From Candidatus Kapaibacterium sp. (lineage in GTDB: Bacteria > Bacteroidota > Ignavibacteria > Kapaibacteriales > JAEUSM01): a stretch of DNA of 64,000 nucleotides. Positions within the stretch are counted from its first letter, which is position 1, and each line of letters starts with the position of its first letter. Below the pieces are notes generated by a model. That model worked only from the letters and a program-made list of their open reading frames with translations. It was not told the origin of the DNA and ran no database searches. The position numbers and the translations under genes are program-made. The stretch lies in the NCBI GenBank assembly GCA_016788785.1, contig JAEUSM010000006.1, forward strand, positions 1 to 64,000, given 5' to 3'. Shown here piece by piece: positions 43,867 to 64,000 of this stretch.

Positions 43867-43901
43867 AAAATAAACCGTAGAGATTGTAACTTGATCAAAT
43901 T

Positions 43902-43942
43902 CCCCTCCATTGGAGGGGTACCACGAAGTGGCGGGGTGGTTT
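43902..43942. repeat. GC-rich palindromic element with GGGGTGGTTTT tail
   Basis: CCCCTCC-ATT-GGAGGGG (43902-43918) followed by ACCACGAAGTGGCGGGGTGG. Much richer in GC than the surroundings. One of several short inverted repeats in the 652-base gene-free stretch 43640-44291, which otherwise holds only the rpmH promoter and the other repeats listed. Confidence 0.65.
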
Positions 43943-43987
43943 TAAAAAGTTGGAGCAACCTTAAAGGTTGACCATTTATGTTGAATA

Positions 43988-44026
43988 ACCCCTCTCCCCA
44001 ACCCTCTCCCCATAGGGGCGAGGGAG
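43988..44026. repeat. CCCTCTCCC-type palindromic repeat
   Basis: CCCTCTCCCCATAGGGGCGAGGG forms a hairpin with one mismatch, preceded by CCCCTCTCCCCAA. Same family as the elements at 44175, 47783, 62130 and 62313. Confidence 0.7.
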
Positions 44027-44134
44027 ATATGTTTTGTTGTTTTTTATTAAGACTGGGCATGCTCTGTCTCTACCTGATATCTGTCAAACTCCCCTCTATG
44101 GATCTGTGACTAAAGGTCGGGGTGGCTTCTACAA

Positions 44135-44157
44135 AGACGCAAAGCATTGCGTCTCTA
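44135..44157. repeat. AGACGCAA...TTGCGTCT palindrome
   Basis: Eight-base perfect stem (44135-44142 with 44147-44154), 4-base loop, followed by CTAC. Related in the outer bases (GAGACGC...GCGTCTC) to the hairpin at 47727. Confidence 0.65.
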
Positions 44158-44174
44158 CAAAAAAACGATAACTT

Positions 44175-44211
44175 CCTCTCCCCTCTGAGGGAGAGGGTTG
44201 GAGTGAGGGGC
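44175..44211. repeat. CCTCTCCC...GGGAGAGG palindromic repeat
   Basis: CCTCTCCC (44175-44182) pairs with GGGAGAGG (44189-44196), then GTTGGAGTGAGGGG. It ends about 80 bases before the next cyclase gene. Confidence 0.7.
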
Positions 44212-62115: not shown

Positions 62116-62129
62116 GGGGGAGTTTTTAA

Positions 62130-62172
62130 AAATCCCTCTCCCTGACCCTCTCCCTTCAAGGGAGAGGGAATA
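62130..62172. repeat. CCCTCTCCC palindromic repeat
   Basis: CCCTCTCCCTT-C-AAGGGAGAGGG (62146-62168) is a perfect 11-base inverted repeat, preceded by a partial unit CCCTCTCCCTGA. First of three such elements in the 342-base gap 62116-62457. Confidence 0.75.
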
Positions 62173-62211
62173 TCCTTTTCGTTCTTTTCTTGCGTAAAAA
62201 CCCATAAAACA

Positions 62212-62275
62212 ACCCCCTCTACCTTGAAGGGAGATGTCCACTGAGGCTCTCGAAGTGGATGGGGTGAGGGATTAT
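62212..62275. repeat. CCCCCTCTACCTTGAAGGGAG...GGGGTGAGGGA repeat
   Basis: Longer imperfect element with an inner inverted repeat GTCCACT...AGTGGAT near 62237-62262. Same family as the flanking elements but with an extra insert in the loop. Confidence 0.6.
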
Positions 62276-62312
62276 ATTACAACAAACTTCTTAATAACTA
62301 AGCCCAAAAACA

Positions 62313-62353
62313 ACACCCTCTCCCTCGAAGGGAGAGGGATGGGGAGAGGGATT
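62313..62353. repeat. CCCTCTCCCTCGAAGGGAGAGGG repeat
   Basis: Perfect inverted repeat with a short tail GATGGGGAGAGGGA. Remaining sequence to 62457 holds only a possible -7 box TATATTTG (62419-62426). Confidence 0.75.
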
Positions 62354-62457
62354 CACTATCCAAAAACAAATTTCACCAAATACCTAAACAATTGCCATAA
62401 AAAGACAATATAATTATGTATATTTGTCTTAGTTATAATAATCGAAAGGTAAAGATA

Positions 62458-63075
62458 ATGAGCACATTACAGCATTTACATCAAATTTACACTCAATATG
62501 TCAAACTTGCTTATTTGACAGATGTTTTGTATCACAATTTTGCAAATGAGAAATTGGAAGAAAATAATATTGATATTCTAATTAAAGATTCAATATTAGT
62601 AGCTTGGAGTGCATTTGCTCGTTCTTTATTAGATTGTCTATTAACTGAAAATAAAAGTGAAAATGAAAACAGAAAAGATGACTTGATAGCCATAGATTTT
62701 TTTAATTCTCAACTAGTAAATGAATATTTAGCTACTCAAAATAAACTAAAAAGTTGTTTTGAAGTAACTGAATTTAAAAAGAGCATCCATAAATATTCCC
62801 TACATTTGACGTATTTTAATAACCCAGAAATTGAAGAATATCGAAGAAAAGTATTTGAATACTTTGATTTTATTCATTATGCAATGAATAATTTTCTTAT
62901 CTATTTAAAAAGAGTAGAAGAATTTGAACCTATAATGAATAAGTATCCTTTAATTGTTCTAGAATTTTCAACAACAACCCCAGATTTTAAAATGAAGATA
63001 TCAGGTGAAGTTAGAGGTATTACGTTATTGTCAAACTTAAGATTATTCGATGCTCTAAATGACATGAAGTTTTGA
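62458..63075 (+). CDS. unknown helical cytoplasmic protein (205 aa)
   Basis: No signal peptide or membrane helix; mostly alpha-helical with many charged and aromatic residues (LVAWSAFARSLLDCLL near 48-63, YSLHLTYFNNPEIEEYRRKVFEYFDFIHY near 120). I do not recognise the family. I take ATG 62458 (MSTLQHLHQIY); the ATG at 62416 falls inside the TATATTTG promoter-like box. It stands alone between GC-rich repeats and the hairpin array. Confidence 0.65.
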   Translation: MSTLQHLHQIYTQYVKLAYLTDVLYHNFANEKLEENNIDILIKDSILVAWSAFARSLLDCLLTENKSENENRKDDLIAIDFFNSQLVNEYLATQNKLKSCFEVTEFKKSIHKYSLHLTYFNNPEIEEYRRKVFEYFDFIHYAMNNFLIYLKRVEEFEPIMNKYPLIVLEFSTTTPDFKMKISGEVRGITLLSNLRLFDALNDMKF

Positions 63076-63329
63076 CTAATTTTTGTTTAGAAAATCCTAT
63101 ATCGGAGCTTTTTTTTGTCGTGCACTGTCACAATGTCGTGTATATTGTGTGAAAGTAAGGAAATTTCTTACCGTAATTTACATTTTCGTATATTTGTATT
63201 CTATACTCTTACTTTATAATCAATTATTCTATGCCGTCATTACAGTGGATTGGGAAAGATTTTTAAATCAATTGTATTAGGATAATTGTGAAAGAACAAT
63301 GAACTTGCACTGAAAACGTTTATAAATTA

Positions 63330-63410
63330 GCTGTCTGGAGTTGAGAATGAAATTGTTTTCATCGTTTTACTCCTTAGTCATCATACTTCATAGGTATGAT
63401 GACTTTTTTT
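63330..63410 (+). ncRNA. candidate small RNA 1 (hairpin family A)
   Basis: GGAGT...ACTCC encloses an ATGAAA/TTTCAT stem, then CTCCTTAG, then the perfect 10-base hairpin GTCATCATAC/GTATGATGAC (63377-63403) and T7. Organised like a bacterial small RNA with its terminator. Promoter not identified. Confidence 0.4.
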
Positions 63411-63464
63411 GTGTCTCAAACAATTTTCGTTTTTATTCAACGTTGATTAATCTGACTAAATGAA

Positions 63465-63545
63465 TAAGTTCATGAGGTCTCCTTTAAGGAAAAATAAAAA
63501 TAGCATAAGACCATCAAGCAAAATGTTTGGTGGTTTTATGCTTTT
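63465..63545 (+). ncRNA. candidate small RNA 2 (hairpin family B)
   Basis: TCTCCTTTAAGG (63478) and an A-rich linker, then a stem of about 15 pairs GCATAAGACCATCAA/TTTGGTGGTTTTATGC (63503-63541) and T4. First of three copies of this hairpin. Confidence 0.4.
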
Positions 63546-63599
63546 GTACAATCTGTTTATTTTAAAACCGTAATATAATTTAGGTTACGATTTTGTGCT

Positions 63600-63665
63600 G
63601 TCATAATCGCAATCTCCTTTAAAGCATAAGACCATCAAGCAGAAATGTTTGGTGGTTTTGTGTTA
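63600..63665 (+). ncRNA. candidate small RNA 3 (hairpin family B)
   Basis: TCTCCTTT (63613-63620) directly before the hairpin (63623-63664). Compared with candidate 2, A-U and G-C pairs become G-U at two places, so pairing is kept while sequence changes. TATAAT at 63574-63579 lies upstream as a possible -10. Confidence 0.4.
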
Positions 63666-63719
63666 TAAAAGAAATAATTGAACAAACATTACGTTTAAAT
63701 ATACTAATGAATACATGAC

Positions 63720-63790
63720 TCATTTCAAGTTTGTCTACTGAAATGAAAGCCTCCGAGTCATCATATCTGTACTGGTATGGTGACTTTTTT
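63720..63790 (+). ncRNA. candidate small RNA 4 (hairpin family A)
   Basis: CATTTCA...TGAAATG stem, then GCCTCCG (63749), then GTCATCATATC/GGTATGGTGAC (63757-63784) with two G-U pairs and T6. Same three-part plan as candidate 1. Confidence 0.4.
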
Positions 63791-63849
63791 GTATTCAATA
63801 AAATACATCATCTATCGTATAATAGTTATCGAAAGTCTATGGGAATTTG

Positions 63850-63930
63850 TTCACATAGGAGACTCCTATCGTAAAGTGTGAAAAAAGCATAAGACCATCA
63901 AGCAGAAATGTTTGGTGGTTTTGTGTTTTA
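63850..63930 (+). ncRNA. candidate small RNA 5 (hairpin family B)
   Basis: ATAGGAGACTCCTAT palindrome carrying ACTCCT, then AAAAAAGCATAAGACCATCAA...TTTGGTGGTTTTGTGTTTT. TATAAT at 63819-63824 precedes it. A further CACTCCTTCAAGG at 63937 suggests a sixth unit running off the window end. Confidence 0.4.
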
Positions 63931-64000
63931 TGACATCACTCCTTCAAGGCACCGGATGTGAGTGATTGAATGATTTGTTTTTGGAAGAAGAGGAAGAGAA

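Follow-up and report, generated by a model that had tools for sequence, protein, structure and literature searches.

Five related hairpins with a shared CTCC motif in one intergenic gap of a Candidatus Kapaibacterium genome: a candidate cluster of sibling small RNAs

Is a row of similar hairpins between two genes of Candidatus Kapaibacterium a set of sibling small RNAs, or something more ordinary? The hairpins lie near the end of the window, by which we mean the whole stretch of 64,000 nucleotides that was analysed. A 645-kb contig in a draft genome of 2.97 Mb begins with this window. The closest relatives that we could compare belong to the same order and are no nearer. An earlier note on this DNA had proposed a tandem array of sibling small RNAs with loops resembling the anti-Shine-Dalgarno sequence, in a gene-free stretch at 63076-64000. 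The start of that stretch is correct, and its real end is at 63935:

63076 to 63935, no strand assigned, gap between convergent genes that holds the array (from ORF lists)

The gap measures 860 nt, more than any other of the 12 convergent gaps found in 482 kb of sampled sequence (median 92.5 nt). Its left neighbour is ORF219, on the plus strand at 62416-63075 with the stop at 63075, and its right neighbour is a carbohydrate ABC permease (Pfam PF00528) on the minus strand with the stop at 63936. A CTCC at 63937, thought to open a sixth unit, thus sits within the permease coding sequence and that unit drops out. Since the two genes converge, neither strand of the gap is the leader of a downstream gene, and the array has no cis target on either strand. 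Two loci of permease orthologues in relatives, compared for synteny, are without the array. ORF219 is an orphan of 219 aa with 25.8% GC, and it belongs to no family in Pfam, NCBIfam or PADLOC and is without relatives in 122 genomes from the same order, in 396 from the phylum, in plasmids and in viral contigs. As an orphan in all sets compared, it was rejected as a linked partner of the array. Its string HKYSLHLTYFN has what we take to be a faint likeness to HEPN-type proteins. An orphan and AT-rich neighbour suggests that the array region may have been recently acquired.

Hairpin scan and folding bear out five hairpins on the plus strand, in the order A-B-B-A-B that had been described:

63376 to 63404, plus strand, hairpin A1, terminator-like with a T7 tail (fold, hairpin scan)
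63502 to 63542, plus strand, hairpin B1, 19 bp (fold, copy comparison)
63623 to 63664, plus strand, hairpin B2, 19 bp, T-run beyond the stem absent (fold, copy comparison)
63755 to 63786, plus strand, hairpin A2, terminator-like with a T tail (fold)
63885 to 63928, plus strand, hairpin B3, 20 bp (fold, copy comparison)

The array is stranded. With their leaders, the five units have fold-energy z scores of -4.2 to -7.1 on the plus strand against dinucleotide shuffles, and on the minus strand only -1.7 to -3.1 in four of the five; A1 folds well on both strands. At paired positions scored as different between copies, a standard pair is kept on the plus strand and lost on the minus strand. The statement that the B hairpins differ by changes that keep the pairing is thus correct for the plus strand, but the stem changes between copies are few and mostly wobbles, so that the direction is supported and covariation is not proven. 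The description of the units as a hairpin plus a T-run suits the A hairpins, which have a clean T-run after the stem, but not the B hairpins, where most of the T-rich stretch TTTTRTGYTTTT belongs to the 3' arm and where a strong T tail is absent from B2 and B3. On the minus strand, at 63880-63934, B3 is followed by TTTTTT shortly past the permease stop; it may therefore also end the permease transcript, so that both directions are served.

In the other gaps of the 231 sampled (both strands, 482 kb), a strand holds at most three such hairpins. A rival explanation would be that duplicated intrinsic terminators or hairpins are stacked here to keep two convergent transcription units apart and that no RNA acts in trans, with B3 ending the permease transcript, A1 and B1 serving the ORF219 side, and the others as spare copies. 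It agrees with the convergent gap, with the quality of the A hairpins as terminators, with the T6 of B3 on the permease strand, with the fact that the repeated unit is the hairpin and not the leader, and with the lack of any promoter found per unit. Against it, five hairpins stand on one strand whereas elsewhere there are one or two terminators and the median convergent gap is 92.5 nt, the loop identity of B2 and B3 is unneeded for termination, and the CTCC before every hairpin, which is treated below, is left unexplained. We regard this explanation as unlikely, while giving it real weight.

A CTCC-type motif had been reported just before each hairpin. CTCC is indeed found in five of five units, but the longer CTCCTTT is complete only in B1 and B2:

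63370 to 63373, plus strand, CTCC of unit A1, which longer folds pair with GGAG at 63337
63479 to 63482, plus strand, CTCC of unit B1, in the self-complementary CTCCTTTAAGG (pre-stem window and fold)
63614 to 63617, plus strand, CTCC of unit B2, in CTCCTTTA (pre-stem window and fold)
63751 to 63754, plus strand, CTCC of unit A2, unpaired with a probability of about 0.98 (predicted fold)
63863 to 63866, plus strand, CTCC of unit B3, within the palindrome ATAGGAGACTCCTAT (pre-stem window and fold)

The distance from CTCC to stem ranges in the five units from directly adjacent up to about 20 nt. CTCC lies within all five 25-nt windows before the stems, and a shared 4-mer of equal rarity was found in 0 of 20,000 random intergenic sets, which is beyond chance, with the reservation that the copies of the array are related and the five cases are not five independent events. 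Among 104 other terminator-like hairpins in 770 kb of sampled genome, CTCC stands at most 25 nt upstream in 6. These six are two CCCTCTCCC palindromes, two apparent tRNA 3' ends (one of the two confirmed as tRNA) and two single cases, and at least four of them have a trivial cause. That the distance to the stem varies in the array, and that the leaders are otherwise unrelated, argues that the motif has been kept. Palindromes of the CCCTCTCCC and GGGAGAGGG types are repeated in the gaps at 62116-62415 and 43890-44200, on both strands, with a further one near 376362 of the contig, and have the look of a repeat that is dispersed through the intergenic regions of this genome.

The anti-Shine-Dalgarno reading has partial support, and the idea that the motif is in loops has none, for CTCC is in none of the loops of the conserved A or B hairpins. 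In the predicted folds it is open in A2, mostly or partly open in B2 and about half open in B3, and it is mostly paired in B1 and in the longer versions of A1, those of A1 with short 5' ends excepted. In four of five units CTCC is preceded at 5-9 nt by a CAT, against a background of 15 of 85 that includes these four, and this spacing is that of the complement to a Shine-Dalgarno (SD) sequence with its AUG.

In this genome the Bacteroidota element TAnnTTTG is concentrated about 33-57 nt upstream of starts, and the gap has one perfect copy on the plus strand, ahead of the first unit, and none per unit:

63189 to 63196, plus strand, TATATTTG, the only perfect plus strand TAnnTTTG of the gap (motif search)

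Judged from its sequence and position, TATATTTG could start a transcript that enters the array. No motif common to the five leaders scored above shuffles. A candidate promoter 'CGTTTATAA', noticed by eye about 51-70 nt ahead of the stems, was rejected as not better than shuffles, and ECF-type -35/-10 pairs were dropped because their spacing, also judged by eye, was inconsistent. One rival that fits these results is a single long RNA with five hairpins, made from the 63189 promoter or by read-through from ORF219, which would act as a scaffold or sponge with several sites and perhaps be cut in the long B stems. The single perfect TAnnTTTG ahead of the array, the lack of a promoter common to the units, and B2 and B3 without a strong T tail all agree with such an RNA, but A1 and A2 would be strong terminators inside it, and we find it rather improbable.

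CTCC is the sole feature that the five leaders have in common. The B2 and B3 hairpins, on the other hand, are identical over 43 nt, loop included, and their leaders are without similarity. The conserved module thus appears to be the hairpin plus CUCC, with the hairpin as the main part and CUCC as the second. Dissimilar leaders of B2 and B3 argue against a recent duplication of whole sRNA genes, in which case the leaders should match; it would seem that either the hairpin alone was copied, or that it was strongly constrained while the leaders drifted. Sibling sRNAs usually conserve their seed. The sequence thus does not bear out the picture of sRNA genes that were duplicated in tandem and have a seed in common, as the leaders are unrelated and no promoter shared by the units was found.

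The hairpins are unique to the array. A covariance model of B has the three array copies as its sole credible matches in the 2.97 Mb of the genome, and nothing credible in 122 further genomes of the order; weak matches in two relatives were set aside as chance (E about 0.03 per genome, 123 genomes). A pattern search of the genome for A returned A1 and A2 alone. The array, A included, has no credible blastn match in 60 genomes of the same order and none in phages or plasmids, and the B pattern has no match in viral contigs. Rfam gave no match at the gathering score and, below it, none to a bacterial sRNA family; the sub-threshold matches, to eukaryotic snoRNA or miRNA models, were rejected as chance. 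As A and B are found nowhere else in the genome, they are not its ordinary terminators, and on this point, that such hairpins should not be scattered after genes as plain terminators, the earlier note stands.

Another rival is that a short palindromic element, mobile or repetitive, multiplied locally and left the hairpins behind without function. Almost identical hairpins between unrelated flanks are what such remnants would look like, and the neighbouring ORF219, an AT-rich orphan (25.8% GC), fits as well. Against it, the hairpins show no scatter in the genome and a single orientation throughout, CTCC is kept though its distance varies, and an integron core site GTTRRRY is absent. We consider this origin very doubtful. 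An integron attC array was likewise rejected, GTTRRRY core sites being absent from the gap on the plus strand, and so were type III toxin-antitoxin repeats, as there is no toxin gene downstream on the plus strand.

That the units encode small peptides, or an opposite-strand type I toxin-antitoxin set, is hardly credible. Short plus strand ORFs do overlap A1 and B1, and AAGGAG-n-ATG precedes tiny ORFs on the minus strand in some units, but no ORF is common to the siblings, the one-base difference in the B loop between B1 and B2/B3 shifts any frame through the loop, and the minus strand folds poorly in four of the five units. Leader peptides or a type I toxin on the minus strand were rejected for the same lack of a shared ORF and the same poor folding.

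GGAG occurs 4-20 nt before the start in 5.9% of 356 genes, a figure that misassigned starts dilute somewhat, against 0.3% in a control stretch; SD sites in this genome are real but rare, and the presumed target site is thus rare too. Target prediction for the CUCC leaders gave no signal, with duplex energies at 345 translation starts no better than at upstream controls (means about equal). The best-scoring targets of B2, a paralogous set that shares TTGGTTGGAGAAGG before the ATG, were rejected as an artefact because TTGGTTGGAGAAGG is the apparent coding end of an overlapping upstream gene. These paralogous genes, of about 540-750 aa, start at 864, 2681 and 46021 with a shared stretch before the ATG that begins with TGAA, and more copies are near 404777, 419154, 421400 and 423238 of the contig; they make up an expanded family in which the overlapping start is conserved. 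Neither RF00177 nor an anti-SD pattern matched a 16S rRNA in the draft genome, which is 99% complete, and the missing 16S is probably an assembly gap.

The explanation that we favour, at somewhat less than an even chance, is that five sibling small RNAs, all from the plus strand, form a lineage-specific cluster. It is based on the plus strand structure, with its strand bias in four of five units and stem changes that keep the pairing, and on the CTCC before five of five stems, against none in 20,000 random sets and 6 among 104 other terminators. The CAT before CTCC in four of five units adds to it, as csRNAs give a precedent for anti-SD plus anti-AUG (PMC3091779), and so do the convergent setting, the highest number of one-strand hairpins among the sampled gaps and the absence of A and B elsewhere. 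Of the original proposal, the related, strand-specific and structured units are upheld, and the anti-SD loops and the common seed are not. Several observations speak against sibling sRNAs: no shared promoter motif scores above shuffles and there is one perfect TAnnTTTG only; CUCC is largely or partly paired in A1, B1 and B3; unrelated leaders with near-identical hairpins are the reverse of seed-driven siblings; few genes bear an SD, and the duplexes at starts are no better than controls; and no homologue was found in any set searched.

Under the sibling sRNA explanation, the units would be separate transcripts that act in trans with the SD as target. Each RNA would begin with a short 5' leader that is unrelated to the others and often forms a weak first hairpin, followed by CUCC and the conserved 3' hairpin, A or B, which would end or protect the RNA. 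CUCC and its flanking bases would pair with the SD-bearing translation starts of a few mRNAs, which would thereby be blocked in the manner of csRNAs and LhrC, and the shared hairpin could be a handle for stability or for a protein. This anti-SD mechanism is our inference. A further idea, which we think is rather a long shot, is that an SD-poor bacterium of the Bacteroidota type has an sRNA family in which it is the 3' hairpin that is copied and conserved as a module, instead of the seed, so that unrelated leaders share a stability or protein-binding handle and a CUCC contact for a few SD-dependent genes.

Were the array expressed, this lineage, in which most genes are without a Shine-Dalgarno sequence, would have a clustered system of sibling sRNAs. 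A CUCC sRNA would then address a small and definable set of genes, which would make the use of rare SD sites directly testable. Some caution is called for, as conserved hairpins with variable leaders can mimic sRNA siblings without a common seed.

One close parallel is with the csRNAs of the CiaRH regulon in Streptococcus, which are intergenic, terminator-ended siblings 51-202 nt long; their two stem-loops enclose an anti-SD stretch and an anti-AUG, CAU (PMC3091779). The array has the same succession of hairpin, CUCC and terminator-like hairpin, and four of its five units have a CAU that precedes CUCC by 5-9 nt. The two have no sequence relation, and csRNAs share their unpaired region and a CiaR promoter, whereas the array has unrelated leaders, no common promoter that could be seen and a CUCC that is often paired; no direct repeat of the CiaR type (two TTTAAG repeats) is found ahead of the units. 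LhrC of Listeria monocytogenes is a family of five homologous multicopy sRNAs whose CU-rich UCCC motifs pair with the SD region, and these motifs are in loop A, a single-stranded stretch and the terminator loop (PMC4132741). In the array each unit has a single CUCC, which stands ahead of the last hairpin, and, unlike in LhrC, the hairpins are its conserved part.

In FopS, a multicopy Bacteroidota family from Bacteroides, a single-stranded 5' seed is combined with an independent terminator hairpin; it has 14 copies, is associated with RbpB, and has a conserved 5' seed R1 and canonical promoters (PMC11697453). The array has five copies in one cluster, and its 5' leaders are unrelated. FopS is reported to have been deposited in Rfam (PMC11697453); the Rfam search, in release 15, which may or may not hold FopS, gave no match for the array. 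Tandem sibling sRNA genes with anti-SD motifs in one intergenic region are found in NmsR of Neisseria (PMC5362039) and in AbcR1/2 of rhizobia (PMC7143759), and NfeR1 of rhizobia has six copies with aSD motifs in loops (PMC7143759). All of these belong to other phyla and have other sequences, and the tandem sets among them are pairs with similar bodies. By its architecture, and not by its sequence, the array is a candidate member of this known kind of sibling sRNAs.
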